From: Antedon mediterranea
Lineage: Eukaryota > Echinodermata > Crinoidea > Comatulida > Antedonidae
Reading direction: 5' to 3'
NCBI RefSeq assembly: GCF_964355755.1
Contig: NC_092678.1
Span: 5,428,922 to 5,492,921 of the forward strand
DNA length: 64,000 nt
Below the pieces are notes generated by a model. It made no database searches, was not told the origin of the DNA, and was given only the letters and a program-made list of their open reading frames with translations. Positions 7,315-62,305 of this stretch are shown in pieces; positions within the stretch are counted from its first letter, which is position 1; the number at the start of each line of letters is the position of its first letter. The position numbers and the translations under genes were made by a program.

Positions 7315-7330
7315 AATTTGTTAATATTAA

Positions 7331-16595: not shown

Positions 16596-17133
16596 AAAAT
16601 GTCACCAGACAACCTAACATTTGCAGACTTCCTTTCAGAATTAGGTAATGTGTATAAAGGTGACAGAATCTTTTGGCTGAAACTGTTGCTATTTAACCAC
16701 TGTTCAGGAGCATTGTTAGGCAAAGATGACATCCCGGCACTTGAGCTCTTTAATGAGCTTGAGGAAAGAGGTTACATTTCTTACAAACCATTGGATGTAG
16801 ACATTCTAGAGGACATTGCTAAAGTAACAAAGCAGAAAGAGGCTTTAGATGTATTAGAGAAGTTTAAAAATGATCAAGTCAACAAGAAAGTCGACAACTT
16901 CACCAAGGGCGAACCAATAACACCATTTCGCAAAAATCTTTATAATGCTTTAAGAAAAAATTCAAAGAAAGTAACAGACATTGCTCCTGCCTACAAACTG
17001 GGACATGAAGAATATAAGAATATTTGGGACTTTGTATTAAAGCTGGAAAAGAACAAACTTCTGGAGGATGTACAGGAATCAAAGGAAAGGTTTGCAAGAC
17101 AACTCAATAAAGATGCAGCAGATATCTTGCTTG
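16596..17133 (+). CDS. Gene B exon: death effector-like domain plus helical segment
   Basis: Starts MSPDNLTFADFLSEL. The DED pattern is F-x2-FLSELG, LKLLLFNHC, LFNELEERGYIS and a DVDILEDIA helix. The second half (FRKNLYNALRKN, IAPAYKLG, IWDFVLKLE, FARQLNKDAADILL) is all-helical and shared by genes B-E. It may be a degenerate second death-fold, but I cannot place it in a family. Confidence 0.75.
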
Positions 17134-20100
17134 GTAATTACACAAAAAATTAAAAATCAATAACGATAATGATATGATCAGATACTGCCGACAGCAGAAT
17201 ACATTCTTAGCCACTGTATAATTTTTAATATTAATACTTGGTAGTAATCATATATAAAAAATAAAAACAATAATATTGTGATAATAAGATAACCTGGTTT
17301 TCATTTTATTGAAGTATGACTAGCAATTGGAACAAAACTACTTTTTCACAGGTAAATCTTCAGGTGTTGATGAACAAGAACAGCCCAAGGCATCCACATC
17401 GCTGTCTGATGAAACAATGGAAAGAGGTATTTAATTTCTTTCAGAATGTAATAAGCCACAATTGCATATTATACTTGAATGAACTGAGGATAACACAAGA
17501 AAGAAAAACATTTGTGGCTGGCATCTCTCATAATATGTAGACAAGCTACAATAACAACAACAAAATGACTCTGTTTCACAGTTGCAACCCGTCATACACA
17601 ATGCATGGCAACCAACAACTATAACTTTATTATTACACATTAACAACTTTTATCCCATAATAATGGTGCTCTGCTCTTTATGCATTTTTTGTCATGCTAA
17701 AGGTTGCTAACAATATAATTTGCTCTGTTTTACAGTTGAGATCTCTCATACAGAAATACAAGACACATCCACATCACAGTCTAAAGGTCTCAACACAGAT
17801 GGTAATCTTTTACATTTTGATGTCAATTAGTATTCCACATCATACATTGCTTTTATTATGCTTTGTTTATATCTGTATAATATTGTTACATTTCTAGATC
17901 TACATGATTTCTTTGTTGTAAGTGATGATGTTGAATGGGAAAAAAGAGTAATAAAGGAGCTGAAAGAAAGAAAACAGGATATTCAATGCCTCAGTCAAGC
18001 AGACTGGAACCCTTCACTTAGTGAGGCAGAAAACATGTCAAAACTTTCTAAAATATGTAAAATGGTATTAGTGGGCTTTACATCAAACCCTATGACAAAT
18101 TTTTCAAAGTATACTGCTAGACTAATGGTTCAACGATGGACTAATTGTTCAAGTATCGAAAAACTAAAACTGATTATAGCAAAAATAAACAGGGATGCAT
18201 TCATACCAGAATTCCTGGAAGTAGTATCTGTTAGCAAAGGTTGGGAAAAGGATTTCTATAGAAAGATCCTCAACACATTACGTGAAGAAGGTAAAGTTAT
18301 TCCATATCTAATAACAATTCTTTTTAATTCGCCATAGTAGACTTCAAAGTCATATTTAATAATATACACATGTTCATCTTGTGGTTATGTTTAAACAAGA
18401 GTATGATTCTATCACAATTGATATTATGATGTTTTTCATATACATTGTGTGTTTAATAAAAAATATGTAATAACTTATTATTTGTATATTTATAGTTATT
18501 GGAGTGATAGTAAAACCCCAGAATTCAGAAAAAGAAAAACCTGTTTATAATTCAAGTGTCAAGAAATTTCCAAATATGAGCAAGTTCTTCGAAAGAAGAT
18601 TCAGAGTCATCTTAAGATGTATTGGAAAGGGATCTATAATCCTTCACCTTGCTGTAAATGATGCCAGCAGTTTGAATAGGTTATGGGAAAGTCATGTCCA
18701 GAAAAAATTAAAGAAATATCTGACGGTGATATTAGATTATTCTATGAATGAATTCGATACAGACATAGATGAGAATGAATACAAGATTGTGCTCAGAAAA
18801 CTAATGGCAAAAGGTATAGTTGATTTTATAGTACAAAGATTTATGTTTTCGATCATTAAAATGTTGTAGTTTGTCCATGTTATTGTTAGTTAGTATCAAA
18901 TTCTTTTATTTAATTTTTTTGTCAGTTTTAAAAGTAAATTAAAACAATTAGTTATATTAAAATTTGCGATTTTAACAATGCACAATCTTAATATTTAATA
19001 TTGATATTAATTAATAAATAATCTTTAATGCAACTTTTTAGATGCACAAAGCAGACAAACTGAAGGTGTCATTGCATTAACCAGTACTGTAAGGTTAGAT
19101 GAACGTGAAATGGCTGTTGCAGTAAGTTTCAAATTCTTCAAAACATTTATTACCTGTCCTCTGTAAAGTGCAACAACCGCCCCACACCTCATCACACCAA
19201 TTACGGTTGAGATTTTTTGGGGGAAGAGGGTTGTATCGTAATTCAATTTCTTCAAAATACAAAGAGTATATATTAACTACAATATTTGTCAGTTCATACA
19301 GTTGAGCATTATGTAAATCACTTTAAAAAACAAAACTGCATTATTATTTTTATATCTTTTATATCCAATGATGTATATCTTGTTCTTTCTTAAAGACATC
19401 TGGAACGTTGGAAAATGAAAAATTCATTGAAACACAAGAGAATAGGAATGAACACTACCAAGTGCAAATACTCTACATTCCAACTATCATTGGAAATACC
19501 ATGTATGCAGGATGTCACTTTAATCCTCAGAGTGGTTCACAAAACTTCATCACCAATATAATCCACAATATTGTAAAGAATAAAGAAGTCCTTCCACCAG
19601 TTATTGATAAACAGGGTCAATTATTACCGGTAAGGGCATCAGTTACAGGACCAGTAAGAACATCAGTTACAGAACCAGTAAAAACATCAGTTACAGAACG
19701 AGTAAGAACATCAGTTACAGAACCAGTAAGAACATCAGTTACAGAACCAGTAAGAACATCAGTTACAGAACGAGTAAGAACATCAGTTACAGAACCAGTA
19801 AGAACATCAGTTACAGAACCAGTAAGAACATCAGTTACAGAACCGGTAAAGGCATCAGCCACAGGACTGGTAAAGGCATCAGCTACAGAACCGGTAAAGA
19901 CATCCGCTACAGAACCGGTAAAGGAATCAGTTACAGAACCAGTAAATACAAAAACACAAGACTATTGCACATCAAATACCAATGAAAATAATCAAAAGGT
20001 TGAAAGATATCAATATAATCAACAGAATACTCAAATCAAGATAATAAAACAAGTAAGAAAGATCTTTAAAATTGTTGATGATAAATTTACCATTGATAGA

Positions 20101-21165
20101 AAAGATACATCTTTGACTGTTACAAAGGGACAGCCATTTACAGTAACGATAACAAATATGGATAAAAATGATGCACGTAAAGTAACAGCTACTCTGATAA
20201 AGCCATCTGGTGAAAAGATTGCCACTGAAGTAAAACACATGGGACGTGGAGAGTACAGAATAAAAGGAAGATGTGATAAGGAAGGTGATTGGAAGATGGA
20301 GATCACTTCTGAAAAAGGGAAAATCAAAGGAACACCTGTGAAAATCAAAGTGGAACCACTAGGACTTGTACATACGATTGACAGCATAAAAGAACACAAA
20401 GTTAATATGGAATACAAAGTATCAGATGTAGTATTACACTCAGACGGTTGCATATTAGTGTCTAGCTGTTGTAATGAGATTATGAAGTTTAATCATTCAG
20501 GTGAATTTGTTGAAAATATTCAATTGGCAAACAATGTTAACGTCAGTAAAATGCATGAAATGTGTAACAGTTATATCATGTATAGCGACACAGAAGGAAA
20601 GAGGGTTGTAATGTGCAATGACAAATTTAAGGAAATCACTCAATTTGGCAAAGAAATAATGGAATTTCCATGTGGTTTGGCAGTGAAAAATGAAGTTCTG
20701 TATGTTGCCGATATGTTTTCTCATTGTGTATTTAAGTTTGATGTTGATGATGGCCTGCCACTGGGTAAGATAGGTTCAAAGGGTACAGAAGAGGGTCAAC
20801 TGTGTTACCCGAGTGATGTCACTTTTACCAAGGAAGGCTATTTGATGGTTACGGACTGTGGTAATCATAGAATACAACTGTTTGACGCAAATGGCACTTC
20901 TGTTAAAATACTTGTGTGCAAAGGTGAAGAAGATGGGAAAGTTATGTACCCTTGTGCAATAGTAATGGACATGGATGAAAACATAATAATAACCAGTATG
21001 AATAAAGTACAATTATTTGATAAAAATGGTGTTTTCATAAAACGAATAGATGGCATAGATGATGGCATTAATAGTCCATGTGGAATCAGTGTAATATCCG
21101 ATAGACCAAGGAGAGTAGCCATTGCAAATGGTGGAAAGAATAATGTGAAAATATTTAATTACTAA
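16599..21165 (+). CDS. Gene B: DED - TIR-like - TRADD-N-like - filamin/NHL protein
   Basis: Predicted coding exons: 16599-17133, 17352-17426, 17736-17801, 17898-18290, 18496-18813, 19042-19121 and 19396-21165, about 1078 residues. All introns before the last are phase 1 and the last is phase 0. Domains: DED 1-90 plus a second helical segment to 178, Ser/Thr-rich linkers to 225, TIR-like 226-356, TRADD-N-like 357-462, an 8-residue repeat tract 569-672, filamin-type Ig about 716-809 and NHL propeller about 816-1078. The start ATG lies 3 bases inside the exon, after a 5' UTR exon. A possible AATAAA is at 21493. The domains suggest a cytoplasmic scaffold linking death-fold and TIR assemblies to ligand or RNA recognition by the NHL part. 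That role is inferred. Confidence 0.75.
17898..18290 (+). CDS. Gene B exon: TIR-like domain
   Basis: 131 residues. Opening strand DFFVVSDDVEWEKR resembles TIR box 1, CLSQADWNPS the box 2/BB-loop region, CKMVLVGFT the strand before the W-helix (ARLMVQRW), then LKLIIAKINRDAFIPEF. No glutamate matches the catalytic position of NAD-cleaving TIRs, so a scaffold role is more likely. Confidence 0.65.
18496..18813 (+). CDS. Gene B exon: TRADD N-terminal-like domain
   Basis: 106 residues with GSIILHLAVNDASSLNRLW, a KKLKKYL helix and an acidic DIDENEY strand. This resembles the TRADD-like N-terminal domain found in many invertebrate immune proteins (GS-hydrophobic strand, LW helix, acidic EY motif). 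The family call is from memory of the pattern. Confidence 0.6.
19396..21165 (+). CDS. Gene B last exon: repeat tract, filamin-type Ig and NHL repeats
   Basis: 589 residues in one exon. The filamin/ABP280 repeat shows VTKGQPFTVTI, ATLIKPSGEKI, GEYRIKGRCDKEGDW and a closing IKVEPLG strand. The propeller has NHL signatures such as YPSDVTFTKEGYLMVTD followed by GNHRIQLFD. It ends NNVKIFNY, almost the same as gene D. Filamin plus NHL is the C-terminal half of TRIM2/TRIM3/TRIM71-type proteins, but here without RING or B-box. Confidence 0.85.
   Translation, partial: TSGTLENEKFIETQENRNEHYQVQILYIPTIIGNTMYAGCHFNPQSGSQNFITNIIHNIVKNKEVLPPVIDKQGQLLPVRASVTGPVRTSVTEPVKTSVTERVRTSVTEPVRTSVTEPVRTSVTERVRTSVTEPVRTSVTEPVRTSVTEPVKASATGLVKASATEPVKTSATEPVKESVTEPVNTKTQDYCTSNTNENNQKVERYQYNQQNTQIKIIKQVRKIFKIVDDKFTIDRKDTSLTVTKGQPFTVTITNMDKNDARKVTATLIKPSGEKIATEVKHMGRGEYRIKGRCDKEGDWKMEITSEKGKIKGTPVKIKVEPLGLVHTIDSIKEHKVNMEYKVSDVVLHSDGCILVSSCCNEIMKFNHSGEFVENIQLANNVNVSKMHEMCNSYIMYSDTEGKRVVMCNDKFKEITQFGKEIMEFPCGLAVKNEVLYVADMFSHCVFKFDVDDGLPLGKIGSKGTEEGQLCYPSDVTFTKEGYLMVTDCGNHRIQLFDANGTSVKILVCKGEEDGKVMYPCAIVMDMDENIIITSMNKVQLFDKNGVFIKRIDGIDDGINSPCGISVISDRPRRVAIANGGKNNVKIFNY
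19633..19944 (+). repeat. Coding minisatellite: 13 units of 24 bases
   Basis: Encodes 13 copies of an 8-residue unit, mostly RTSVTEPV, with later units drifting to KASATEPV. Consecutive units are nearly identical at DNA level, so copy number probably varies. It is absent from genes C, D and E. Confidence 0.9.
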
Positions 21166-21730
21166 ACAACCAAACTATTTTAAAAAATCACTTCACCTTG
21201 AATCATATGTAAATATGAAACATTATTTATCCTGCTGCAATTGCTGTAATCTTAGAATAATATATAATATTTTAAACATTCACTGATAATAACCAAGAAA
21301 CTTTAATAATGCAATATGCAATATTTGTACTACTCTACATGTAATATAATGTATAATCAAATATTAAATTCATATTTTTCTGTTTTATCTAAAAATGACA
21401 CGACTATTTATATGTTATTTATATTTTAGTCATAGGGAATGTAGCGAAAAGTTTATAATGAAACCAGTAATTAGTTGGAAAAAGTAATATAAAATAAAGC
21501 CATAAGGTACAAAATATGCTTTGTGAACTGATATGTGATCTTTTAGTTGTGCGTCTTTAGTGAGCAATTAGTAAGGTCTACAGTAATAGATGAGCATACG
21601 AAACAGCATAAATACTACCTTGTGAACAGATAGGCACACTCCTATACATGTTAAGACAAACAAATAACTGACACCGCTACATACAGTTGTTGGATTACTT
21701 CACTCTACTTTAGTTAGTTAGTGTCCTTAC
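21166..21730. other. 3' flank of gene B
   Basis: Contains a candidate polyadenylation signal AATAAA at 21493-21498. From about 21280 it begins to match 44905 onward, the left end of the segmental duplication. Confidence 0.5.
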
Positions 21731-21900
21731 CTTCTTTTTGCTGGTAGGGTTGACAATGACAGACTGTTTCATCGGTGATTTCACTTCTATTTTAACATTA
21801 ACAAGACTGTAGCTTGCCAGTTGCTGCAGGACTGGTTCACCAGGTGCTGTTTCTACTGGTAACAATTTTAGTGGCTGAATATCAATCAATGACTTCACAT
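21731..21900 (-). CDS. Gene X, possible alternative 3' exon (copy 1)
   Basis: 170 bases with a CAG acceptor, entered in phase 1, encoding a proline/valine-rich segment (DVKSLIDIQ...PTSKKK). It lies beyond the main stop of gene X, so it could be joined from any phase-1 exon, such as 26535-26832. A GTAAGG donor-like sequence follows, but reading through gives VRTLTN and a stop. The exon is kept in four units of the window (also 38331, 45362, 63038), which argues for use. Confidence 0.5.
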
Positions 21901-22918
21901 CTGAAAGTAAATGGTCAATACATTTTCTGTCAGTAGATCAATCAATTATGATATTAATTTTTTAGGCTATACAATTTACTTGAATTACAAAATAATTGAT
22001 TGGTCGCGTAAAATAAATTCATCATTACTATTTCTGAAAAAAAGGCAAACATCTACTCACCATATAATTATTCTTTAAAGATGAGCTTGATCAACAATGT
22101 GCTGCAACAAGCATTAGGCTAATTAACTAAAATATACAATTACAATATGCAGTGTTCTCTTTATTGATCCAATTGTTCAATCACTCTTGGTCAATGTTTT
22201 AAACTCAAAGTGTTTATTTAATTCCTGTTATGAGTCAAGTTATTCCTGTAAATCTTGATGGCAAAAACTGCTTCAGAGAACACTGGTATCAGGTCACTTT
22301 ACACACAACAAAACTACAATTTTAGGTCCATTTTCCTTTATAATTATATACTTATTACAAATATTAATAAACAAAAACAGTATTAAGTGTATCATGAATT
22401 AATTGTTATGAATGCAAAATATGCATTTTATAATCAACTTAAGTAATAGCATACCAAGTGGTTGTGTGTAAATTGCTCATTTACACAATTCGGTATAAAG
22501 AAATACAGTATGTACAGTACACTATTGGAAAAGAGTAGGAATCATCTGGCGGTATGCTGATCATGGTCATGTGCACTGGGGTCTCTGGGAGGACAGTCTT
22601 TTACTGAAGATGTCCCCCAGTATAAAGAAACAAATAAAAACAATTACATAAAGTTAAATAGATTATACAACCTCAGAATATGGTATTTAGTATTCTGATT
22701 GTTATGAAAGCAGTAGTTATAATTTTCATTCAAAATAAAAAAGTTTGTCTTTTTATTGCACTGCACATGGAACATGGAAAATTATAAATATATGTACAAA
22801 TACACTAATTAATTCTTGACAAGAAAAACAATTCTTTTGTATGATATGGTTTTTTGGCAAACACACTTAAAAATTGCGGTGCATGTCATTCAGGAGAATT
22901 ATACAAAAATAAACATTT
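21901..22918. other. Non-coding stretch between two gene X 3' exons
   Basis: No exon recognised. TTTATT at 22752-22757 would be an AATAAA on the minus strand for the gene X transcript ending at 22919. The whole stretch is closely repeated at 45532-46550. Confidence 0.45.
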
Positions 22919-25900
22919 TTACAAGTAGGATACCAAAACGTTTGGTGTTGGAATATTCCTTTCAAGCTCATCATGATGGATGATTCTTCTTCTCATCTCT
23001 GGAAATCTTTCCATCAGTAAATGTTCTTCCAGTGGTGAAGGCGTCAGTCTGGCTGTTGGATGAAATGGCTTGAGCAAAACAAATCTAGAAGTGCATAAAA
23101 CAAACAAAAAGCAATGAAGTTTCACCACATAAATTCAGTTTTGTTGTGAGTGATGATGATAATATGTTGATGATGATGATGATAATGTTGATGGTAGCCA
23201 TAGTGATGATGATCCTTCTCATAAAGATAAAAATATGAATAGTAACTAATTGATACAAGTCATACTTGGCCTTGTTTGGGATGGATTGAGGTGTGTGAGG
23301 GCGCCGTACAAGCATTGGTCCTGATGTCCCATCAGCCTTCTCAAACATCTCTTTGTTTGAGCTTCTCAATATTTTTGGGTGTTTATTTAGACGAAACCTG
23401 AAAAACAATTTACAATTTTACTCAGTAAACTGGAACACAAACGAGGATGAAGAGATGAAATTTCAAAGCATATAGGATAAATGACATAAGACAGGAAATA
23501 CAGTATTGTGTGAATGATGACATCATATTACACACAGTAATAAATAGTTTGTACTGAGCATGCTCAAAAGTAGAAAACACATCCATACCTGTATGCCATT
23601 TCTTGACTCAGATCATTTGTTTCTTTATAGTGTTTAGGTTGTGGTGGTGTACCAGGACGTGCTTTCATTGCTGGTGACTGATATTTCTTAAATAGATCAA
23701 GTGAACTATCTGAACGTGTTAGGCAATCTGTAGAATAGTGTAAAAAACTTGTATTATTGCTTAGATTAATATGACATTGAAACAAAATACACTATTATAA
23801 AATTCCAAATAAATTTCAAATAAACTGTAAAATTCTAGAGTAAAAAAAAAACTCACACGTATTAGTTTGGTCAGGGATATCAGATGAGCCACTACGATGG
23901 CCCTTAAGTGCCTTCTGACGCTGTATTAGATGAGCCTCCTGCTCAGAGATGTCACCTGCGCAATTATGATGGCCCAGAAGTGACTTTCGTCGTTGCCTAA
24001 GATGCTCCTCCATTATTTGACGTTTTTCAAATGCAAAACGAGCACGTTCTGCTTTTTTTAAACGAAGTAGTTGATTCCTAAATTTTAAAAGAAAAACATT
24101 TTAAAACTTAGCTTACATAAGTAAAATTTAAATAAACTAACGCCGTATTCTTAAACCGGACTTTAGTCGTAGTTCGAGCTAAAACTATAAAAATGACATC
24201 ATTTTAATTCATAAACCGAACTTCAACTAAATCGCCGACTAGTTCACGCCAACCTCGACTAAATCGAGACGAATTTTGATTGATTTTTTTAGTCCTGGAG
24301 GGGGCAGGCTAAATGGTCGACTAAATAGTTATTAAACGATGTTTATGAAAACCGTAACAGTCATTGAGTTGTTATATTGGCCATATATTGAAAAATGAAA
24401 TATCTATTTTTATATTAGCTTAATTAAGTATACATTGGTATAAGTTGTAATAATGAAAATAATCTTTATTTACAACCGTATACAAATTACATTATTTTCT
24501 TCGCGCAAGTCCGACTTGAACTACGTCACGCCATAGCGACAATGGCAGATGCGGAAATTCACCACGCGATGGAATGTTTAAGGGGCCTAGCGTTTTCTTG
24601 TCACGCGATGAAGTGCGTGGTTCATCGCGATCATACTTTATTGGTGGCCTAGAAAATATAAAAGTTACCGTACCGCCATGGTTCCTGAATATATTTTGAA
24701 TATTTTGTTTGTTGTTAATCAAAAGTACTTCACTGTTAAATTGATACTGATCTTGTTCTAATAATTAATGATTAAAATTACTTTTCATGTATATAGTCCT
24801 GATGCGTAAAAAGTGTTGTAAGAAAATGGAAAGTGATATCAATGCGCAAAATTTCGTCTGCTCCTCAAATACTCTCTTGTCATTGGCCAATGAATAGCCT
24901 TTGTTACCCAGACGTGTGCAACTCGACTAAAAGCTCGACTTCATTAAGTCGAACTGCAAACTTCGACTACTTCGTTTTTTAATCGAATTTGAAGTAATAG
25001 CTCGAACTACGACTTTTTCAAGTCGAACTTCGAACTACGACTAAAGTCCGGTTTAAGAATACGGGCGTAAACGTTTTTATTAGAAAAAGTAAATGTACCT
25101 ACCTCTCTATCATCCTATCTTGCCAGTTGTCATCAAACCTTGTTCCATCGTTTCTTAATAAATCAACAGGACTTCTGTATAAATAACAAAAAGCTCATTT
25201 ATTTCATATTTTAATATCAATCCGTCTGGAAATCTTTTCATAGCATATGGGTACTATTTGTATTTATCCTCATTACTTTACAAAAAGTAAAACCAATATA
25301 GATTATGTTAACTGCATACTGCTTTTTTAGGAATTACATGTGTACAAAAAACCTTACTTTACTAGTGTCATCAACTCACCCTGGCAAACTGATATTTCGT
25401 TGTAAGTAATGCGAATCAAATGACATCTTGAAGACAAAAAAAGACAAAATCATATTTTTTTTTTTTTAAAGAAAAAACATATTTTATTTTATTATACATA
25501 TATATTTACTAATCTTGAATGTTTCTCTCAGGCAAATTAGTATTTCTCTCTGACTGTTTATTTAACCTTTTTGTTTTTCCCACAGCATAGTGTAATCCAG
25601 TAAATTATTATTAATTACTATTATTATTAACAGATATAAATCTTACATCATCCTGTAAGGCATAAAGATCTCCTGTCGCAACTGTATGAGGGCGCTCTAA
25701 AGAATATCGTCTTCCTTTAATAAAGAAAAATAATTTATGATGATTAATTAAAAACATACTTATAAGAATATTTTATAACTTGTTTCATGATTTTGTTAAC
25801 TACACAAAATGTTTCATATTATCTTTCATTTAAAAAATAAAGTATTTAAAGGGTTACTGTTTCCATATTCCGCTGTGTTTGGTCTCGCAATTGTCCCGTC

Positions 25901-28182: not shown

Positions 28183-28798
28183 CTATTTAAAATTTAAAGA
28201 AAATTAAGATAATGTCATGTAGATTTAGTCATGTTCACAAATTATAATAATTAATATAATTATATTTGATTAGTACTAAGAATGAGAGTTGTTTCTGGCC
28301 ACACACATTAACAAAACTCATGGAACAGAAGTCTCCATTTTGGTGCTACCTGTGGAAAAAGTCACAGTTTTTAATTGTCATGAATTTAAATGCCTATTAA
28401 TTTTGTATGGTACATATATGTGAATGGACTAAGATAAAAATTCAAACATGAGATGTTTATCTTGAAATATTCTAATAATTAATAATAAATGTGAAATGTA
28501 TTGACAGAAAACAAACAAAAATGGTGGGTATACAAACATGCAGATATATATTCAGAATTAATATTGATGTTTGTTATATTGATGTTTTTTAAACACAATG
28601 TTGTACTCGGCACCTCATTGAAAATTTAGAATCCATTGTGAACTGTACCTATTTCATTAAGTAAATAAAGTATTTTGCATTAAATAAACATAAATTGGCA
28701 CAAAGTATACATAATACAATTTCAAAACGGTACTAAATGCCATAAAGTGTAAATATTCCAGACTAGAAGTACTGTATGAAATACATCATTTTCCATAA

Positions 28799-28819
28799 TA
28801 TAAATAGCAGGGAATTTCC
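28799..28819 (+). promoter_or_regulatory. Core promoter of gene C: TATA box plus NF-kappaB site
   Basis: TATAAATAG at 28799-28807 and GGGAATTTCC at 28810-28819. A predicted 5' UTR exon ends at a GTAAGT donor at 28953. Compared with gene E, about 90 bases just upstream (including the DR1-like motif) are deleted. Confidence 0.75.
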
Positions 28820-29699: not shown

Positions 29700-29900
29700 A
29701 ATACTTAGTAATTAATTTAAAAGAAAAGTTTTATTAAGTTGACGTTTAAATACAGGAAGCACGTTCCAGATCCGCGGAGCAGTGGCAGAACAAGCATTGT
29801 CACCAGCTTTCCGATTAGGTCATGGAACGAAAAGTCGGGTAGGACCATTAGAGGAGCGAAGTCGACAACTGTAATTAAATGAAAGCTGATCACGGTTAAA
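29700..29900 (-). mobile_element. Non-LTR retrotransposon fragment, RT C-terminus (copy 1)
   Basis: On the minus strand one frame reads RLRSSNGPTRLFVP, a stop, then GDNACSATAPRIWNVLP, a CR1/RTE-type C-terminal signature with one nonsense codon. It lies in the first intron of gene C and is repeated at 56830-57020 because of the segmental duplication. Confidence 0.6.
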
Positions 29901-30132
29901 CTTAATTAAATCAAATTTGAGGTACAAAAGAAAAACAGAGTAAATACATTTATAAACAAAAACATTAATTTTATACAATATTTTTTTTATGGAGATCTTT
30001 CAATAAACCACCATCAGAGGACTGATCCCGTCCACACGCAAAGACCAGCCGCGCCGTCTAATCGTCGTCACTGTATTATTGACTTTATAATTGTCATACT
30101 ATTTTAATAATTCTTTATTTTTACTATTCCAG

Positions 30133-38670: not shown

Positions 38671-38671
38671 A

Positions 38672-41210: not shown

Positions 41211-41265
41211 TCACTACGATTCAATAATCAATCCTTTGTATTACAATAATCAATCCTTTGTAAAT

Positions 41266-50823: not shown

Positions 50824-50882
50824 CTATTTAAAATTTAAAGAAAATTAAGATAATGTCATGTAGATTTAGTCGTGTTCACAAA

Positions 50883-53430
50883 TCTATATATAAATTTACG
50901 TAAGGGCAAAATTCGGTAAATCGCGCCTTACTTCTAGAATTTTCACTCGATGGTATGTAAAGTTGGTTCGTACTTTCGGTACTGATTTTAACCGCCTGAT
51001 GTAACCCTGTTTACTAATTAAATTGAGTTAGATAATTAGTTATTGACGATTAAAACGAATTTAGGTTCAAAGATTTGCCCCAAATAGGGGTGTTTTCCGA
51101 TCGTGGTATACACTGTCTAATGGATGTCCATCTTGAAAAATACCTGCCAAAAAAATGCGAGGAGGCTTCGCATTTTTCTATCTCCTCCTACGATAATTGT
51201 TTTTAATAGCTGAAAACCGGTTGAACAGCTAGAGTACACCATCATAATGTTGAAGACAGGCCGATTTTCTTTAAAAAATACTATTTTGATAGATTTAATA
51301 TACGATTATACAAATGTATTGATTTGCGATGAATGGAACATCCCAATCTCTCAGTCTGCCAGAGTTTGGTTTAACACAAGTACTGTAGGTAAATTTATGA
51401 GCCCTTGGTTTAACACATACGGTAGGTAAATATATGGGCCCTTTGAGAATAAACTTGCAATACTTTGACAATACTGTAAATACCTATTAACTATTTTTCA
51501 TTTGAATCGAACATTTCTTACTGTGAATGTTCGTACTGTTAGATGTAATATAAAAATATATACAAATAAACTTTATTACTGAGACTGTGGATAGGCTCTA
51601 CTGTTAGATATACAAATAAACTTTATACTGACAGTTCCTTCTCAACGTTTGTATTAATTAATAATTACCAAAAATATAAACGTCGTAGTGGTGTATCGTG
51701 ACATGTACTTTAATATTTCAATCGATTATGACAGTGACAGTTTTAACAAAGTATTAAATCGCAAATGTTTTAGGCCTACTGTATTTAGAGGTATATTATT
51801 TATAGGCCTATAAAACATGAACAAAATATTTCGTTACTCAGTGGATAAAGAATATATTTAAAAATTGTTCCTCTTTGTACCTATCCGCTTTCCCATCCCT
51901 CAACCCTAATGTTACATAGCGAGGAGGCTTCGCATTTTCCTATCTCCTCCTACGATAATTGTTTTTAATAGCTGAAAACCGGTTGAACAGCTAGAGTACA
52001 CCATCATAATGTTGAAGACAGGCCGATTTTCTTTAAAAAATACTATTTTGATAGATTGCTAGAGTACACCATCATAATGTTGAAGACAGGCCGATTTTCT
52101 TTAAAAAATACTATTTTGATAGATTTAATATACGATTATACAAATGTATTGATTTGCGATGAATGGAACATCCAGTTTGGTTTAACACAAGTACTGTAGG
52201 TAAATTTATGAGCCCTTGGTTTAACACATACGGTAGGTAAATATATGGGCCCTTTGAGAATAAACTTGCAATAGGTTCGGAAAATGTTAAAAACCAATTT
52301 CTATTATTTGAATCGGTAAACAGTTTCCATTTATTATACATTGATAATGAAACATGAAATATTCCTATTTATGTCCCTCGAGGTTCATTACAATTTATAT
52401 TTAGTAGTCCCACGGACTTCATCTTAGCCACTCCCCCGAGTGCTAAGGCCAAATTTATGATACCCTACTTTCTATGTAAGTTTAGTTACAGTTAGTTCTT
52501 GACGATAATACAACGAATTTAGGTTACACCCTTCGGCCGCGAAACTGTTTCTGTACAAATATGATACCGATTGGCTTTATTTCATTCAACAGCGACCATA
52601 ATCTCGCCAATTACAGGATAGATAAACTATTTTATTATTGATGTGCTTATAAATTAAGACTCATGTAAACAGCTTGATTACATCATTTTACAGACAAACG
52701 AAACTTTTTTAAACCTACTGTTTCAATAACTGAGTATAATACTGTATACGTTTTCATAAGTAAGTGCATATACATTTTCGTGTTTTCATTGACGAGATTG
52801 TAATAGTAACTTCAGTAACTATTACAGATACTTATTTATTATACGACACAAGACAATTGTATCTGACAGGTACGTACATTATTCTAAAAAATAAGTCTAG
52901 ATAGATCCCTTAGGCGTCATAAATCACAGGCCAACAAATCAGTACTCATGACAGAAATTCGACCCAGTTTGGTTCACACAAATGTTTACAGGAAGTTCAA
53001 CACCACAACCGATGATTTGCCCTAAATATTTAGGTAGACTACAGTTTAATTTTTCACTGAATAGGAGCTTGAATTTCCAATTTCCATTTCGCAGAATGTC
53101 TAGGTCTATTTATTTAGTTTGGTTCTTATAATATATAAATACAATCAACTTTATTACTGCGGTTCCATCACCACCACCACGTGCCGCCGCCCAATTCCCG
53201 TACATACATTTCCATTTCTCCCTAATTTCTTTAATCCACATAAATTAATTGTCCTTTATGGAATCCAGTATTGGTTTTGTTGTCTCTATTTCTGAATACC
53301 CCAATTAGGGGGACACTTCCGTTTTTGTTTAGTGTCCCAAAAAAGTCCCCGTCCGTGGATTCTACTGTATTCGAGAACCATCTGTGAGCACCCCTAGATG
53401 GTACGCGAGCGAAGCGAGCGTGCCATCTAG
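50883..53430 (+). mobile_element. Non-autonomous Helitron (2548 bases)
   Basis: Starts TCTATATATAAATTTACG after CACAAA and ends with a hairpin (GATGGTACGC with GCGTGCCATC) directly before CTAG, followed by T. The paralogous site at 28240 reads CACAAA then TTATAATAATT with no insert, so the element entered exactly between A and T without a duplication, as Helitrons do. No Rep/helicase frame is present. A block at 51157-51452 is repeated in two pieces at 51919-52054 and 52057-52271. Confidence 0.85.
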
Positions 53431-54037
53431 TTATAATAATTAATATAATTATATTTGATTAGTACTAAGAATGAGAGTTGTTTCTTGCCACACACATTAA
53501 CAAAACTCATGGAACAGAAGTCTCCATTTTGGTGCTACCTGTGGAAAAAGTCGCAGTTTTTAATTGTCATGAATTTAAATGCCTCTTAATTTTGTATGGT
53601 ACATATATGTGAATGGACTAAGATAAAAATTCAAACATGAGATGTTTATCTTGAAATATTCTAATAATTAATAATCAATGTGAAATGTATTGACAGAAAA
53701 CAAACAAAAATGGTGGGTATACAAACATGTAAATATATATTCAGAATTAATATTGATGTTTGTTATATTGATGTTTTTTAAACACAATGTTGTACTCGGC
53801 ACTTCATTGAAAATTTATAATCCATTGTGAACTGTACCTATTGTTATATTTCATTAAGTAAATAAAGTATTTTGCATTAAATAAACATAAATTGGCACAA
53901 GGTATACATAATACAATTTCAAAACGGTACTAAATGCCATAAAGTGTAAATATTCCAGACTAGAAGTACTGTATGAAATACATTATTATCTTCTGATAAG
54001 ATAATAAACACAAAGCTTTGGTACTGCACTGAATAGC

Positions 54038-54050
54038 TGACCCTTGACCC
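54038..54050. promoter_or_regulatory. DR1-type nuclear receptor motif, gene E
   Basis: TGACCCTTGACCC, reverse GGGTCAAGGGTCA, 47 bases upstream of the TATA box. It lies in the block that gene C has lost. Confidence 0.45.
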
Positions 54051-54096
54051 TCACTAGCTACGATTTATTTTAATCAATAGTAATCATTTTCCATAA

Positions 54097-54117
54097 TATA
54101 AATAGCAGGGAATTTCC
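54097..54117 (+). promoter_or_regulatory. Core promoter of gene E: TATA box plus NF-kappaB site
   Basis: TATAAATAG at 54097-54105 and GGGAATTTCC at 54108-54117. The predicted 5' UTR exon ends at a GTAAGT donor at 54246. Confidence 0.75.
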
Positions 54118-54421
54118 AGTTTGTAAAGCTTCTGCTATTTTGAGGCTATTTTAAGGTCGGAAAGGTAGAATGTATTGTGGATAGATTAATACTCAATGTA
54201 CTGTATTGGCAACGATTCTGAGCGGAAGTGGAACTGAAACCAGCGGTAAGTAATATGCAATAATTGGTGTAGAAATTAATGATCTCGTCTGCAACATTCT
54301 CTAATAAAATATATATATATATACAGAGGGTTTGAGAATTCAGATCAAATGTAAAGTCAAAAAGAATACTAGTGTTTTGTAAGGAACCATTAATAAGAAT
54401 TACAATGTAATACCACCTTAT

Positions 54422-55600
54422 TTACATTTCATTTCATTTCATTTATTTCGTCTCACATAATTATACCAAAAACATAACAAACAATAGAGAGAGACATGAT
54501 TCCCAAAAGCGAACTAAATCAAACTATCCAGCAAAACAAAATCATCCAACAATAAAATACAAAATTACAACATTAAAAACAACGTGAAGATTAAAAAGTA
54601 CAAAATATCTATACAAAAGTTACCCAAGACATTATTTTTATTATTATTATTGTTATTATTACTGTTATAATTATCACAGATATCAAATGAAGTTTCAATT
54701 TTTCGTGGATTAATGGCCGATAGTTGTAAAAGAATAAAAGGAAATATTTTGCTTAAAATAACATTTTAATTTATTAATAAATAAGCCTAAGTTAATCGGG
54801 AGCGTATTTCTAAGATCCTGAGGCAACCTATCCCATGAGCGTTGAAACTGCTTAAATGTAGAAAATTTAGACTTTTCAGTCCTACCAAACTTGTGAACAA
54901 ATCTTAGATCATTGTCACGCCTGAGGTTAAACTGAACAAAATCAAAAATTTTAAAATTATATTTGTTATAGAGATATTTGGAAACAAAGGAAATCAACAG
55001 GTAATTTATACGACCATCAAAGGATGGAAGACCAAGAACTCCAAGTCTCTGCTCATAAGAGGATTTAGGTATACAAACCCTGGTCATGCGGCGTTTAACC
55101 CGCTCTAAAGATTCAATCTCTCTCTTGCAATACGGAAACAACGCCGGCATCCCATACTCCATAATAGGTCTAACAAGAGCATTAAAAAGCTTCGGGATAA
55201 CGATGTGGTTTCTAAAACGCACGACCCTCATGATAAACCCCAGAAGCCTGGACGCCTTAGCCTTAACATTTGCGACATGGGTACCCCATTCAAGCTTGTG
55301 TGTAAAGGTAATCCCAATATATTTAAAACACTCCACCCTCTCAATAACGTTCTCCCCAATTAGATAATTGATTGCACTGTTCTTAAGTTTGGCTGATCTA
55401 GTAAACCGTATGTGCTTACATTTAATAGGATTAAGCGGTAATTTATTAACAACACTCCAATTATAAATTTCGTTTATGTCGTTCTGCAATGCAGCACTTT
55501 CTTCGGTAGATCTTATTGCCCTGTAGACTGCTACATCGTCGGCATAAAGTAAAATATTCAATTCAATGAAGGAGGACAAGTCTAAAGTAAATAGGTATGT
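54422..55600 (-). mobile_element. 5'-truncated non-LTR retrotransposon (CR1/Jockey-type RT)
   Basis: The minus-strand frame 54710-55579 is the C-terminal half of a reverse transcriptase. It has LLYADDVAVY (catalytic YADD), LNPIKCKHIRF, YIGITFTHKLEWGTHV, RPIMEYGMPALFPY and WDRLPQDLRN. The 3' end is an ATTTC-type tail at 54424-54445 (TGAAA repeats on the sense strand). The front half, including the endonuclease, is missing. It lies in the first intron of gene E and is absent from gene C. Confidence 0.85.
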
Positions 55601-56233
55601 AATCTGTAGCGTGTGTTTGTTTGTTTGTTAGCAGGATTACTCAAAAAGTAATTACAAGATCTTTACCAAAATGAATAGACAGATAGATATGTGGTCAAGG
55701 ACCATTCCATTAAATTTTGGGACCATTTGGGATCACAGTCCCAATTCAGGACCACTTTTTAGTATACTTTTTCAGACCTGCTAGTTTTAAAAGATAGGAC
55801 AGAATTTTTCAAAAGCCGGCGAGCAGTCTTAAAGTAACAAGTAAACTGAAATTGCATTTACTTCTCCAAAAAACTTCATTTTTTAACAAGAGGCAAGAGT
55901 TATAATTTGTGATGTGTAATCTTAAAACATAATTTGATTTAATGTGCACGTTTTTTGATGCGAGTAGTTTAAAAAACCTATTTATTTTCAAATTCACTCG
56001 TTTGATTTTCGCGTTGCTGTTCTATTGTTAGTCAACTGAAGCTATTGTTAATTGAAAGGCTTGTTACATAACCATTACACGAAACTCGCATACACATGCT
56101 TGTAATGAAATTAGCCTAAATCACAAACAGCATTAAGACACACACAAATATATATATTTTTTTTTACCGGAGAAATCTTATGTAGGAGAATTTTACAGCA
56201 GGCGGAAGTATGCACTCTCGGAGTGGCTTTCTA
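55601..56233 (+). mobile_element. Helitron-like 3' end joined to the LINE fragment
   Basis: This part contains GTGTTTGTTTGTTTGTTAGC and ends with a small hairpin (GCACTC TCG GAGTGGC) then TTTCTAG before T, like a Helitron terminus. The paralogous site near 29115 lacks it. No matching TC start is visible on the left, where the LINE tail meets the host, so the insertion is composite or rearranged. Confidence 0.5.
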
Positions 56234-56829
56234 GTTTTAGGTGCAAAAACTGTTAAGTTTGTAAATATTTGGTGATCCACCACAGTCACACTATCAGTTT
56301 ATTCTAATCTAAATTGGCAGCAATCAGGGCGTAATTGTAAATATATAAACTTAATTATTTTAGTATTATTTTGAATTACTGTTATTGTTTTAATATACAT
56401 TTAAAGTTAAATTTATTTTTTATAGGAAAGTGAACTTAGTAACCTTAACATTTCTCACTCTGTCAATTAATTTGCATAACAAAACAGTACAGTTCTACCA
56501 TACCTCCCTGGTTCTACTACCCATTTGACTTCTAGAAACCATAAATTATTTGTATTGTATATTAGATATTCTAATATCCATTTAAATTCAAGCAACCATA
56601 AATTCTTTGTATTGTATTTTAGATGATTATACAGACTTAGTTATTCACGCCTTAGTGGATGCTACAGCAACATTTTTAAGCATACTTGCTTTAATAACGC
56701 TATATTTGTAACTTGGGGAATTTACAACTATTGTCAATTTCTAGGTAGTGGGTTTATGGAACTGTTTATCATTTCTATTCTATTAGTTTTTATATGACGC
56801 CCTACAAAGAACAGAGCGCTTAACAAATA

Positions 56830-57020
56830 CTTAGTAATTAATTAAAAAGAAAAGTTTTAAGTTGACGTTTAAATACAGGAAGCGCGTTCCAGATCCGCGG
56901 AGCAGTGGCAGAACAAGCATTGTCACCAGCTTTCAAATTAGGTCATGGAACGAAAAGTCGGGTAGGACCATTAGAGGAGCAAAGTCGACAACTGTAATTA
57001 AATGAAAGCTGATCACGTTT
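56830..57020 (-). mobile_element. Non-LTR retrotransposon fragment, RT C-terminus (copy 2)
   Basis: Duplicate of 29700-29900, with a few substitutions, in the first intron of gene E. Confidence 0.6.
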
Positions 57021-57270
57021 AAACTTAATTAAATCAAATTTGAGGTACAAAGGAAAAACAGAGTAAATACATTTATAAACAAAAAAAATAATTTTATACA
57101 ATATTTTTTTTATGGAACTCTTTCAATAAATCACCATCAGAAGACTGATCCCGTCCACACGCAAAGACCAGCAGCGCCGCCTAATCGTCGTCACAGTAAT
57201 TGTCGTTACTGTATTATTGACTTTATAATTGTCACACTATTTTAATAATTCTTTATTTTTACTATTCCAG

Positions 57271-57793
57271 AAAATGTCAAAAGACGAATTTGCAGATTTA
57301 CTTTCAGATATTAGTAAAGAATATGATGGTGATGAATATTTTCAGTTAAGATTTCTGTTAAAAGACCACTGTTCTGGAGCATTATTAGGCAAAAAAAACA
57401 ACACAGGGCAGACATTATTTAATGAACTCATTGACCGAGGTCACATTTCTCATCCCCCTACAAATGTGGAGATTCTGATTGAAATTGCTAAACTGACAGA
57501 AAAGACTCAGGCTTTAACTTACCTTAATGATTTTAAAAATGAACATGAAAATGGAAATGAAATCAAGGTGAAACCAATAACAGAATTTCGTAGAAATCTT
57601 TATAAAGCTATAACAACAAATACAGTTGAAGTATCAAGAATTGCTGCAGCCTACCAGCTAGGTCATCATAATTATGGGAATACTTGGGATCTTGTATTCA
57701 AGCTTGAAAGAAGCAAACGGTTGGTGGACACAAAAGTGTCAAAGAAAAGGTTTGCAAAACAACTTGACGAGGAAGCAGGAGACATTTTGCTCG
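57271..57793 (+). CDS. Gene E exon: death effector-like domain plus helical segment
   Basis: Almost the same protein as the gene C exon, with about a dozen substitutions (for example LIDRGHISHPP for LIDRRHISYPP). It lies at the right end of the segmental duplication. Confidence 0.8.
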
Positions 57794-60700
57794 GTTGGTA
57801 ACTTTTTTATATAAAACTACTAAAATCAAATATTGCAGACAAAGAAATATTCCTGCTGTCCATTTAATGACAATTACATCCAGGTCTTAATGCAATATAC
57901 CTTACATTTCACAGGTAAATCCTCTGGTATAGATGAGCAAGAAAGGTCTGTGTCATCCACACTGCAGTCTGGTGACCACATGGAAAGAGGTGATATTATT
58001 TGTTCTCAAAATGATTAAAGTTAATTGATTCAATACAGTAAACATTTTCCGGTTTCATGTTATTGAAGGATGCTAGAATCGGCCATATCAAACGATTTGT
58101 ATAAAACTACTTTTAACCTATTTCACAGGTGAATCTTCTGGTGTACATGGAAAAGAACGTCTAGAGGCACCCACTTCGCAGACTGTTGACTCCATGGAAG
58201 AAGGTAACACAATTTCACCATTAAAATGCATGCATCCAACAACTATAACTTTCTTACAAACTAATAATAACTTTTATCCCACACTAATGGTGCTCTGCAT
58301 TTATGGTGGATTTCTTGTCATGCTAAAGGTTGCCTACAATATAATTTTCTGTTTCACAGTTGAAACCTCTCAGACAGAAGTACAAGATGCATCCACATCA
58401 CAGTCTAAAGGTCTCAACAAAGATGGTAATTTTTATTTTAATATCAATTAGTATTATTTGTTGTTTAATTGTTATTTTCAGAACAACAGTGATGATGTTT
58501 AAAAGTTATTGATTTATGTTTACTATAATTATTACATTTCTAGATTTATATGATTTCTTTGTTGTAAGTGATGATGGTGGTGAATGGGAAAATAGAGTAA
58601 TAAAGGAGCTGCAAAAATTAAGATCAGATGTCACTTGCCTAAGTCAAACAGACTGGAACCCTTCACTTTTTTGGACAGCAAACTTGTCAAAACTTTCTAA
58701 AATATGTAAAATGGTATTAGTGGGCTTTACATCAAATCCTATGACAAAATATTCAGAGTATACTGCTCAAGTAATGCTTCAACGATGGAATAGTACAAGT
58801 ATGGAAAAACTAAAACTGATTATAGCAAAAATAAACAGGGATGCCATCATACCGGATCTCTTGGACGGAGTATCTGTTAGCAAAGGTTGGGAAAAGGATT
58901 TCTATAGAAAGATCCTCAACACATTACGTGAAGAAGGTAATGTTACTCCATATCTAATAACAATTCTTTATAGTTCTCCATAGCAGACTTCAAAACTATG
59001 TTGAATAATACACATGTTCTTCTTGTGGTTATGTTTAATGATTTTTATTAAATTGTTTATTTGATAAACAAACAAAAAATTGAATAACTTAATATTTGTA
59101 TATTTATAGTTATTGGAGTGATAGTAAAGACACAGAATTCGGAACAAGAAAAACCTGTTTATAATTCATGTGTCAACAAATTTTCAAGACTGAGAAAGTT
59201 TTTTGAAAGATTCAGAGTCATCTTAAGATGTATTGGAAAGAGATCTATAATCCTTCACCTTGCTGTAAATGATGCAAATAGTTTGATTATGTTATGGGAA
59301 AGTCATTTAAAGGAAGAGTTGAAGAAAGATCTGGCAGAGATATTAGAATATCCTGCAAGTGAATTGGAAACAGAAATAGATGAGTATGAATATCAGGTTG
59401 TTCTCAGCAAACTAATGGAAAATGGTAAGTTTATTTTTTAAACACTATTGAAATATCAAAAGATAACTAACCAATGATGTTTAATTTTGTTTAACTTTAC
59501 ATTTCTAGATGTATGTGATCTCTACATTGTCAGTGATGATGTTGCATGGGAAGAAAGGGTGATAAAGGAGCTGAAAGGAAGAAAACGAGGTATTCAATGC
59601 CTTAGTCATGAAGACCCTTCACTTAGTACTGGTGACTTGTCAACTCCTACAAAGAAGTGTAAAACGGTAGTAGTGGGCTTTACACAAGGGCATGCTGATG
59701 TTTCAAATCATGTTGCTAAATTCATGCTTGAAAAAATGAAAATAAATGAAAACATGAAAAAAGCACAACTGATCATAGCAAGAACAGATGAGAACGCTGT
59801 CATACCAGACTCTTCTAAGTTAGTATCGGTTATCAATAGTTGGGATAAAGATTTCTACAGTCAGATCCTGAACACACTAAATGAAGAAGGTAAAGTTACT
59901 GTATTCAATCTCTATCATTGATAATTATCATTAATAATTTGAGTTATTATCATTATTATGGTATGAACATTATTTATATATATATATTACTTTTTTTTTT
60001 TTTTATAAATTAATATTTTTACATTTTATAGGTATTCTATTAAAAATAAACATACAGAATTTGGAACATCAAAAACAAGTTTATAATTCATGTGTGGAGA
60101 AATTTCCAGAATTGGTAAAAGTTTTCCAAGAAATGATTCCTGCCACATTACGATACATTACCGAGGGATCAATACTCTTCCACCTTGCTGTAAATGATGC
60201 CAGCAGTTTAAATAAGTTATGGGAAAGTCATGTCAAGAAAGAGTTAAAGAAAGATTTGGCAGAGATATTACAATGTCCTGCAAGTGAGTTGGAAACAGAA
60301 ATAGATGAGCATAAATACCAGGATGTTCTTGGAAAACTAACGGAAAAGGGTAAGAATTACACTGTGTTTTGGAAATGTTCCACTTTACCATCTTTAAGTA
60401 GGAGATTCCCCTCATTTACCTCTTTAGAAAAGTAAAGAGAAAGTGTAGTTTTATTTTATTGCATTTTGACCGTACACTGATAATTATAACAATCTTATTT
60501 AGGTACAAGTAGCCAAGAAGGTGTCACCACACAAACCAGTACATCCTTAGATGAACCTGTCATAGATGTTGAAGTAAGTGTTCAACATAACATATAACAA
60601 AACACATCTCTATGATAAAAAGCATAATAAACATATTGAAATAAATTACTGCTAACATATGACATTAAGCGAAAAACCTGTCCCCTCCCATTCGAACGAC

Positions 60701-62305
60701 TTTTCTGTAGTAAGTTTAAAATGAAAATAGGATCATCTTACCTCAGCATGCATCGTGCATCCATTGCACAATTATTTCTTTTTTGCAGAAGATCCTAATT
60801 TAGTTTTTCCCTTCATATAATCATAAATTAAGATTTTGTCAAACTGTATTTGTACTACCTATAGATGCAGTTGAAATTTGATATCCCATTAATCAATATA
60901 AAAAATACTTTATTACTTTATTTATAATACTTGAATTAAAAAATGTGTTAATATTATATCATCTTTAATTTTTAAGAATTATAAACAGTTGCAAATGAAA
61001 AAACTCATTGAAACGCAAGAGAATAAGCTTGAATTCCACCAAGATTCAAAACCTGACCACCACAAGTCAAATATCAATGAAAGTGCACAACATGAAATAG
61101 AGAAAGCATCAGAAATGTATGCCAAACTAAAGTTTATGAACATTAAACAATTTCTAATCCACATTTTAAACATTTCTCCTGATAATATGACAAGAAAAAT
61201 TATCCCAGATTCTGTAAAGTACATCATTGGAGAAGATAAGCCTATTACTGTAACAAAGGGACAGCCATTTGTAGTGAAGGTACAAAGTGAGAATAAAAGT
61301 GTAGAATGCAATTTAGTTGCTACTCTGATAAAGCCATCAGGGGAAACAACTGCCACAGATGAAGTAAAATATGTAGGAAGTGGAAAGTACAGAATAAAAG
61401 GTAGATGTGACGAGGAAGGTGATTGGAAGATGAATATCATTTCTGCTAGAATAAAAATTAAAGGTTCGCCAGTGAATATCAAAGTTGAACCACTAGGCCT
61501 TGTGCATACCATTGAAAACATAGCAGCACACAAAGTGGATGAGGCATTCAACGTATCAGATGTAGTATTAGACTCAGTTGGTTGCATATTGGCATCAAGC
61601 TATTGTAACGAGTTATTGAAGTTTAAAAAGTCATTTAAATTTGAGGAAAATGTAAAGGTGGCTGAAAATGCTATGGTCAGAAGAATGCATAACATGGGTA
61701 ATGGTCACATTGTGTACAGTGATTTACACAAAAACATTGTTGTGATGCTTAATAACAAATTCAAAGAATCCACTCAATTTGGTAAAGAAAAATTGAAATG
61801 TCCATGGGGCTTGGCAGTAAACAATAAAACACGAGTTCTGTATGTTGCAGACAGTGAAGTTCATTGTGTTTGTAAGTTTAATCTTGATGATGGTACGGCA
61901 TTGGGTAAGATAGGTTTAGAGGGTAGAGGAGATGGTCAAATGAAGTTCCCAAGAGATCTCACTTTAACCAAAGAAGGTCATGTAATGGTTGTTGACTGTG
62001 GTAATCATAGAATACAGATGTTTGATGCAGATGGTACCTTTATCAAAACACTTGTAAGCAAAGGTGAGGAAGATGGGAAAGTGATGAACCCGCGTGCTAT
62101 AGTAACAGACATGGATGAAAACATAATAATAACCAGTGGGGATAAGCTACAATTATTTGACAAAAATGGTGTTTTCGTAAAACGAATAGATGGCAAAGAT
62201 GATGGGATTAAGGATCCATGTGGAATATGTGGAATCTCTAATAGACCAAGAAGATTAGCTGTAGCAAATTATGGACAAGGCAATGTGAAAATACTTAATT
62301 ACTAA
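57274..62305 (+). CDS. Gene E: DED - (TIR-like - TRADD-N-like) x2 - filamin/NHL protein
   Basis: Predicted coding exons: 57274-57793, 57915-57989, 58129-58203, 58360-58425, 58544-58936, 59110-59424, 59509-59889, 60032-60349, 60503-60573 and 60977-62305, about 1180 residues. Domains: DED exon 1-173, linkers 174-245, TIR-like 1 246-376, TRADD-N-like 1 377-481, TIR-like 2 482-608, TRADD-N-like 2 609-714, linker 715-738, filamin-type Ig about 819-915, NHL about 920-1180. Every intron before the last is phase 1, so the pair could be duplicated without harm to the frame. As in gene C, the first donor is GTTGGT. Reading past it, or using the adjacent GTAACT, gives a stop after GW. Candidate AATAAA at 62515. 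Confidence 0.75.
58544..58936 (+). CDS. Gene E exon: TIR-like domain 1
   Basis: DFFVVSDDGGEWENR, CLSQTDWNPS, CKMVLVGFTSNP and LKLIIAKINRDAIIP. It is closest to the gene B TIR, not to the gene C TIR. Confidence 0.65.
59110..59424 (+). CDS. Gene E exon: TRADD N-terminal-like domain 1
   Basis: The first half (FRVILRCIGKRSIILHLAVND) follows gene B. The second half (ELKKDLAEILEYPASELETE) follows gene C, which suggests recombination within the exon. Confidence 0.6.
59509..59889 (+). CDS. Gene E exon: TIR-like domain 2
   Basis: 127 residues: DLYIVSDDVAWEERVIKEL, CLSHEDPSLS, CKTVVVGFT, AKFMLEKM and LIIARTDENAVIP. The W after the box 2 region is lost and the domain is shorter than TIR 1. Confidence 0.6.
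60032..60349 (+). CDS. Gene E exon: TRADD N-terminal-like domain 2
   Basis: 106 residues: GSILFHLAVNDASSLNKLW, KKELKKDLAEIL and ETEIDEHKY. The second half is nearly the same as gene C. Confidence 0.6.
60977..62305 (+). CDS. Gene E last exon: filamin-type Ig and NHL repeats
   Basis: 442 residues. VTKGQPFVVKVQSENKS and GRCDEEGDW mark the filamin repeat. FPRDLTLTKEGHVMVVD with GNHRIQMFD is an NHL blade. There is no B-box, coil or 8-residue repeat. Confidence 0.85.
   Translation, partial: NYKQLQMKKLIETQENKLEFHQDSKPDHHKSNINESAQHEIEKASEMYAKLKFMNIKQFLIHILNISPDNMTRKIIPDSVKYIIGEDKPITVTKGQPFVVKVQSENKSVECNLVATLIKPSGETTATDEVKYVGSGKYRIKGRCDEEGDWKMNIISARIKIKGSPVNIKVEPLGLVHTIENIAAHKVDEAFNVSDVVLDSVGCILASSYCNELLKFKKSFKFEENVKVAENAMVRRMHNMGNGHIVYSDLHKNIVVMLNNKFKESTQFGKEKLKCPWGLAVNNKTRVLYVADSEVHCVCKFNLDDGTALGKIGLEGRGDGQMKFPRDLTLTKEGHVMVVDCGNHRIQMFDADGTFIKTLVSKGEEDGKVMNPRAIVTDMDENIIITSGDKLQLFDKNGVFVKRIDGKDDGIKDPCGICGISNRPRRLAVANYGQGNVKILNY

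Follow-up and report, generated by a model that had tools for sequence, protein, structure and literature searches.

Here, we describe a tandem array of genes in Antedon mediterranea in which several adaptor domains and a C-terminal propeller appear to be encoded in one chain. In genes B, C, and E of the window, which is the whole stretch of 64,000 nucleotides analysed (C9:5428922-5492921, from a genome of 354 Mb in 18 contigs), and in genes Y and Z upstream of it, the order read from the sequence is apparently DED, conserved segment, linkers, TIR, TRADD-N, bridging exon, filamin, and NHL. The TIR and/or TRADD-N part is repeated in E and Y, and gene D consists of DED and NHL only. We interpret the locus as multi-adaptor sensor genes arranged in tandem, a reading to which we assign a probability of roughly 0.6, including the origin and mechanism proposed below. 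It is built on the predicted exon order, the frames of B to E, the putative domain identities (transitive for TIR and TRADD-N), and symmetric phase-1 cassettes. Speaking against it are the dN/dS ratio of TIR and one frameshifted TIR exon, the ATG at the start of the last exon of C and its resemblance to solo genes, the weak donors of C and E and the GC donor of C, and the profile results for the array copies of TIR and TRADD-N given below.

Should these fusions exist at the protein level, a single chain would tie DED, TIR, and TRADD-N adaptors under an NHL sensor. Vertebrate pathways mostly keep these adaptors on separate molecules. The array also suggests a building route, in which interchangeable phase-1 exons common to TIR-NACHT and DED-TRADD-N genes were followed by tandem duplication with mosaic recombination. 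Such a route makes it possible to test, exon by exon, how an invertebrate gene family of immune type grows.

Gene models and layout of the array

Genes B, C, D, and E lie in tandem on the plus strand. They were spliced by hand using open frames and splice signals, and each is open from ATG to stop once spliced. All introns are GT-AG except for one GC donor after exon 2 of C, and a weak donor (gttggt) is required by exon 1 of both C and E. Exon 1 of each gene ends in phase 1. The linker, TIR, and TRADD-N exons all have lengths that are multiples of three, so that phase 1 is maintained, and a short bridging exon then shifts phase 1 to 0 ahead of the filamin-NHL exon in all four genes and, by eye, in gene Z. 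Because TIR and TRADD-N are carried on symmetric phase-1 exons, a gene can gain, double, or lack them as cassettes.

Gene B (7 exons, 16599-21165, 1078 aa) begins with a DED and a conserved segment of no known family in exon 1 (16599-17133; profile and splicing). Two short phase 1-1 linkers (exons 2 and 3, 17352-17426 and 17736-17801; splicing) are followed by the TIR cassette in phase 1-1 (exon 4, 17898-18290; profiles of relatives and splicing), the TRADD-N cassette in phase 1-1 (exon 5, 18496-18813; Pfam, profiles, and splicing), and the bridging exon (exon 6, 19042-19121; splicing). Exon 7 (19396-21165; Pfam and splicing) holds a repeat linker, filamin, and the NHL propeller. A 24-bp tandem repeat of 13.3 copies (19626-19945) encodes an 8-aa unit in this exon, before the filamin repeat.

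Gene C (8 exons, 30136-36837, 1084 aa) comprises the DED with the conserved segment (exon 1, 30136-30655; Pfam and splicing), three linkers (exons 2 to 4, 30796-30870, with the GC donor, 31018-31092, and 31418-31492; splicing), TIR (exon 5, 31907-32293; alignment with relatives and splicing), TRADD-N without a Pfam match on its own (exon 6, 32570-32884; profile and splicing), and the bridging exon (exon 7, 34707-34789; splicing). Its exon 8 (35113-36837) contains a weak B-box match, filamin, and NHL; it starts with ATG and could be a separate gene.

Gene D (3 exons, 41893-44301, 631 aa) leads from the DED and conserved segment (exon 1, 41893-42418; Pfam and splicing) through the bridging exon (exon 2, 42618-42670; splicing) directly to filamin and NHL (exon 3, 42985-44301; Pfam and splicing), with no TIR or TRADD-N match. 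The full DED-TIR-TRADD-N-filamin-NHL set claimed previously thus stands for B, C, and E but not for D, and a full order in all four genes was rejected.

Gene E (10 exons, 57274-62305, 1180 aa) carries TIR-TRADD-N twice. The DED and conserved segment (exon 1, 57274-57793; Pfam and splicing) and three linkers (exons 2 to 4, 57915-57989, 58129-58203, and 58360-58425; splicing) precede the first TIR cassette (exon 5, 58544-58936; alignment with relatives and splicing) and the first TRADD-N cassette, which has no TRADD-N Pfam match alone (exon 6, 59110-59424). The second TIR cassette (exon 7, 59509-59889; alignment with relatives and splicing) and the second TRADD-N cassette, with the best TRADD-N Pfam match among the window exons (exon 8, 60032-60349), are followed by the bridging exon (exon 9, 60503-60573; splicing) and by filamin and NHL (exon 10, 60977-62305; Pfam and splicing).

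The earlier note had counted four variants in about 46 kb. Four are indeed present in the window, but B to E were rejected as the complete array, since two further genes (Y and Z) lie upstream and extend it to six genes over about 82 kb. Gene Y reads DED, TIR, TIR, TRADD-N, NHL; judged by eye, its NHL exon is apparently shortened on the 5' side and has no visible bridging exon. Gene Z reads DED, TIR split over two frames by a frameshift in the exon, TRADD-N, B-box (by eye), and NHL.

Identity of the domains

NHL exceeded the Pfam cut-off in B, C, D, and E. The DED (E = 4.9e-7 in C, 1.7e-6 in E, 2.2e-5 in D, and 0.016 in B) and filamin (E = 2.2e-4 to 0.049 in B to E) remained below their cut-offs but were matched consistently, and a weak B-box match was obtained in the last exon of C. 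Scanning the window exons with Pfam gave no match to a RING family, NACHT, or NB-ARC. When residues 1-490 of spliced B were compared with about 5.8 billion proteins, none of the 7994 candidates scored reached E ≤ 0.001. The Pfam check suggested beforehand gave NHL above cut-off, DED and filamin below cut-off, TRADD-N matches in B and in the second copy of E, and no direct match for TIR.

A conserved segment of ~87 aa follows the DED (30394-30654 in C, with equivalents in B, D, and E). It is also present in DED-TRADD-N genes elsewhere in the genome, and an alignment of 13 rows contained 15 invariant columns. No significant Pfam or PDB match was obtained for this segment, which is possibly an undescribed domain.

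The TRADD-N family of Pfam matched the second copy of E (E = 1.9e-4, or 5.9e-5 for the trimmed exon) and B (E = 0.024), and did not match the copy of C or the first copy of E. In a PDB search with a profile of the window copies only, designed repeat proteins came out on top (E = 7.9e-6 and 6.1e-4), together with a flagellar protein. These designed-protein values were taken as chance matches on helical repeats, because they were summed over weak repeats with no single stretch significant. The best PDB match of a 24-member profile was a cytochrome bc1 subunit (E = 0.053), and TRADD was found in the PDB by neither profile. Over the whole genome, PF20694 matched two exons, none of them in the array; a DEDD2-like gene is present in the genome. 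We regard the array segments as putative TRADD-N domains, an identity supported transitively.

The label "TIR-like" of the earlier note could be upheld only by way of relatives. None of the array copies tested, those of the window included, matched a Pfam TIR family, and the best PDB match of a window-only TIR profile was a glycosyltransferase (E = 0.69). However, a wider profile from 16 places of the same genome found the TIR domain of TLR2 (E = 1.2e-4), and 2 of the 16 members, neither in the array, exceeded the Pfam TIR_2 cut-off. The array segment is thus probably a divergent TIR, identified through its relatives only. At four of the seven dispersed TIR loci, the TIR exon is followed on its strand by a NACHT exon (E = 2.2e-14 to 3.3e-19); at the other three, no NACHT-like frame was seen by eye within flanks of 1.5 kb (10 kb for the locus on C7). 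The TIR exons of the NACHT genes and the TRADD-N exons elsewhere have phase-1 boundaries where these are readable.

An NADase activity was considered for the array TIR. The column aligned with the Glu of TLR2 KY[E], which we take to be the column of the catalytic Glu of NADases such as SARM1, held Glu in 0 of the 16 TIR rows; one row had Glu one column earlier. The array TIR as a probable NADase was rejected on this basis, and the missing Glu at that column in all rows makes a scaffold role more likely. The links to the TNF-receptor, Toll, and TRIM pathways drawn in the earlier note are putative: no RING was matched in the exons, and none of the 16 TIR rows has this Glu.

Order of modules across the genome

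The genomic lists comprised at least 150 DED-exon matches, at least 115 filamin-NHL matches, 16 TIR places, and 43 TRADD-N places (merged from lists of 24 and 35). For each DED, features on the same strand were recorded downstream for up to 12 kb or until the next DED. Among the 150 DED-exon matches listed, 126 were followed by nothing, 10 by NHL only, 9 by TRADD-N only, and 5 by TIR, then TRADD-N, then NHL; these five all belong to the array. The 10 listed cases of DED-NHL only were gene D and nine others. Three of these nine were read (on C4, C2, and C9); each showed a DED exon and a filamin-NHL exon, and the TIR and TRADD-N profiles matched nothing there. An upstream look in the same lists found a feature at 11 of the 150 DEDs, and in 4 of those it belonged to the preceding array unit.

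Several other loci showed related arrangements. At C4:5.84-5.95 Mb there are six DED exons, and an NHL follows every one of them, whereas neither TIR nor TRADD-N is listed; one of the six was read. At C2:11.01 Mb, a TRADD-N exon lies 5.9 kb downstream of a DED and is flanked by two frames resembling the start of a TIR exon (510-917, by eye, and 2658-3041, E = 0.0044, in the coordinates of locus L031), in which Pfam sees nothing. This locus is possibly a distant second one of similar order, judging from these frames.

Two DED pairs on C2 lie upstream of caspase exons: the pair at 8901575 and 8902014 is 0.5 kb from the caspase exon at 8900438, and the pair at 9124736 and 9125305 is 5.7 kb from that at 9118468. 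These pairs make DED-caspase partners plausible.

Duplication and selection

A segmental duplication links 21267-31113 with 44893-58223 (90-96% identity in blocks), and open frames on the minus strand, at about 25.8-27.4 kb and 48.5-50.0 kb, fall within the duplicated blocks. Gene E is a mosaic, with a DED region 90% identical to that of C and a first TIR-TRADD-N region 81% identical to that of B.

The dN/dS ratios were obtained by the Nei-Gojobori method from summed pairwise values with 300 codon bootstraps. The ratio was 0.46 (0.33-0.64) for the DED exon (five sequences; Y was left out as cut), 0.49 (0.31-0.71) for TRADD-N (six sequences), and 0.43 (0.36-0.52) for filamin-NHL (six sequences). 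For TIR, it was 0.83 (0.60-1.14; six sequences, with the broken copy of Z excluded), which cannot be told apart from an absence of constraint, and the three recent TIR pairs (dS < 0.3) gave 1.05-1.39. The TIR ratio fits either diversification or relaxed constraint.

Alternative explanations

The fusion could have been created artificially when exons were joined by eye, with each unit in fact holding two genes, namely, a DED-TIR-TRADD-N adaptor and a separate TRIM-like filamin-NHL gene, interleaved by tandem duplication. Solo filamin-NHL frames with an ATG near the frame start do exist in this genome. Among those read outside the array, the nearest NHL relatives (L054, L055, and L057) each consist of one frame in which a coiled-coil-like N-terminus precedes filamin and NHL; a B-box was matched by Pfam at 0.001 in L054 and not in L057. 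The last exon of C resembles L057 from the first residues on, and 1.8 kb separate the TRADD-N exon of C from its bridging exon. However, the codon of Z equivalent to the initial ATG of that exon is GTG (by eye), and the NHL exons of B, D, and E have neither a B-box match nor an ATG at the start. The recurrence of the phase-shifting bridging exon and of DED followed by NHL at nine other places among the matches listed, three of them read, also speaks for joined genes. We consider two genes per unit rather unlikely.

It is hardly probable that the array is largely decaying, that is, a set of recent duplicates under relaxed constraint whose leftover open frames yield few or no proteins. The TIR ratios would be in keeping with such decay, as would the frameshift in Z and the shortened NHL exon of Y with its bridging exon not seen, but every spliced exon of B to E is open, and the other three regions show ratios of 0.43-0.49 with upper bounds of 0.52-0.71. 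A very improbable alternative is that the "TIR" segment is another Rossmann-like domain merely resembling TIR. This would account for the window copies lacking a Pfam TIR match and for the resolvases and designed folds that the 16-place profile matched further down its PDB list (from E = 0.052 on). Nevertheless, all six PDB matches at E ≤ 0.03 were to TLR2 or TLR3, with alignments that cover the TIR domain; the two relatives above the TIR_2 cut-off and the position upstream of NACHT at four of seven dispersed loci also argue for a TIR.

Proposed origin and mechanism

Under the preferred reading, the ancestor of these multi-adaptor sensor genes would have been a DED-NHL gene, a form seen at other loci too, which gained TIR and TRADD-N cassettes. 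This gain may have occurred by phase-compatible exon shuffling from pools common to TIR-NACHT and DED-TRADD-N genes, with later duplication and recombination in tandem. The protein would be intracellular and its NHL propeller would bind a ligand. TRADD-N, placed between the constant and variable parts, could act as a switch. The DED and the probably non-enzymatic TIR would then assemble with DED- and TIR-bearing partners, for example, from the DED-caspase loci, and this assembly would start death or inflammatory signalling. The immune function and the lineage-specific expansion suggested in the earlier note are putative.

A more specific scheme, which we think decidedly unlikely, is that a single ligand event at the NHL end clusters both DED and TIR, which share one chain, and fires caspase-8-type and Toll-type branches together. 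The number of TIR/TRADD-N cassettes (none, one, or two) would set the valency of the assembly, tuned by phase-1 exon duplication while the TIR surface diversifies.

Relation to known systems

As described in the text of Kaur et al. (2021, eLife 10:e70394, PMC8195603), marine invertebrates have expansions of genes whose DED+TRADD-N part is constant and whose C-terminus varies. The C-termini mentioned there include WD40 propellers for Branchiostoma and C. gigas, B-box as well as beta-propellers for C. virginica, and fusions with TRIM ligases. The same text links retroelements or retrotransposons to TRADD-N gene diversity, proposes TRADD-N as a switch and attached propellers as possible recognition parts for invaders, and reports bacterial TRADD-N proteins that carry TIR. 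The word "NHL" is absent from the main text of that paper; all architectures are listed in its figures and source data, where an unlabelled NHL case is possible. Its sections 10-13 do not attribute a TIR domain to metazoan TRADD-N proteins and mention TIR only as a filament-forming example. For amphioxus, TIR-NACHT and other hybrids have been reported in the part of Zhang et al. (2008, PMC2575513) consulted.

The earlier note knew of no described protein with this full order. None with DED-TIR-TRADD-N-NHL was found in literature titles and abstract openings, but the kind of gene had already been described, as far as the text of Kaur et al. (2021, PMC8195603) goes. Since those expansions include propellers and B-box, the general gene kind is known and the DED-TIR-TRADD-N-NHL combination appears to be a new variant. 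The array genes share with the DED+TRADD-N proteins an N-terminal DED, a TRADD-N between constant and variable parts, a variable C-terminus, and retroelements nearby. Profiles and spliced frames placed the N-terminal death-fold DED and then TRADD-N in one frame in B, C, and E. The array differs in the TIR between DED and TRADD-N, in the doubling of TIR-TRADD-N, and in the C-terminus, which is filamin and NHL in B, C, and E. At the nine DED-TRADD-N places of this genome, no listed NHL followed.

With TRIM-NHL (class VII TRIM) proteins, the array has in common the C-terminal filamin (below cut-off) and NHL, and solo relatives, one with a B-box match, exist in the genome. In contrast to these proteins, no RING was found, a B-box occurs only in C (weak) and Z (by eye), and the N-terminus consists of DED, TIR, and TRADD-N. 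The TIR-NACHT genes of the same genome have TIR relatives on phase-1 exons, but the array has no NACHT match. As in TRADD and DEDD2, TRADD-N is coupled to a death-fold domain; unlike them, the array genes end in NHL with no C-terminal death domain and have the extra TIR and NHL.

Further frames were observed around the array genes. Gene A, at 3729-5045, consists of two further tandem relatives of the DED exon and is followed by a hydrophobic open frame at 5971-6330; none of the TIR, TRADD-N, and NHL profiles matched before gene B. Retroelement-type frames lie between the genes at 6808-7320, 8858-13810, and 54710-55627; their matches were GIY-YIG; protease, RT, RNase H, and integrase in an LTR-type frame; and an RT fragment.
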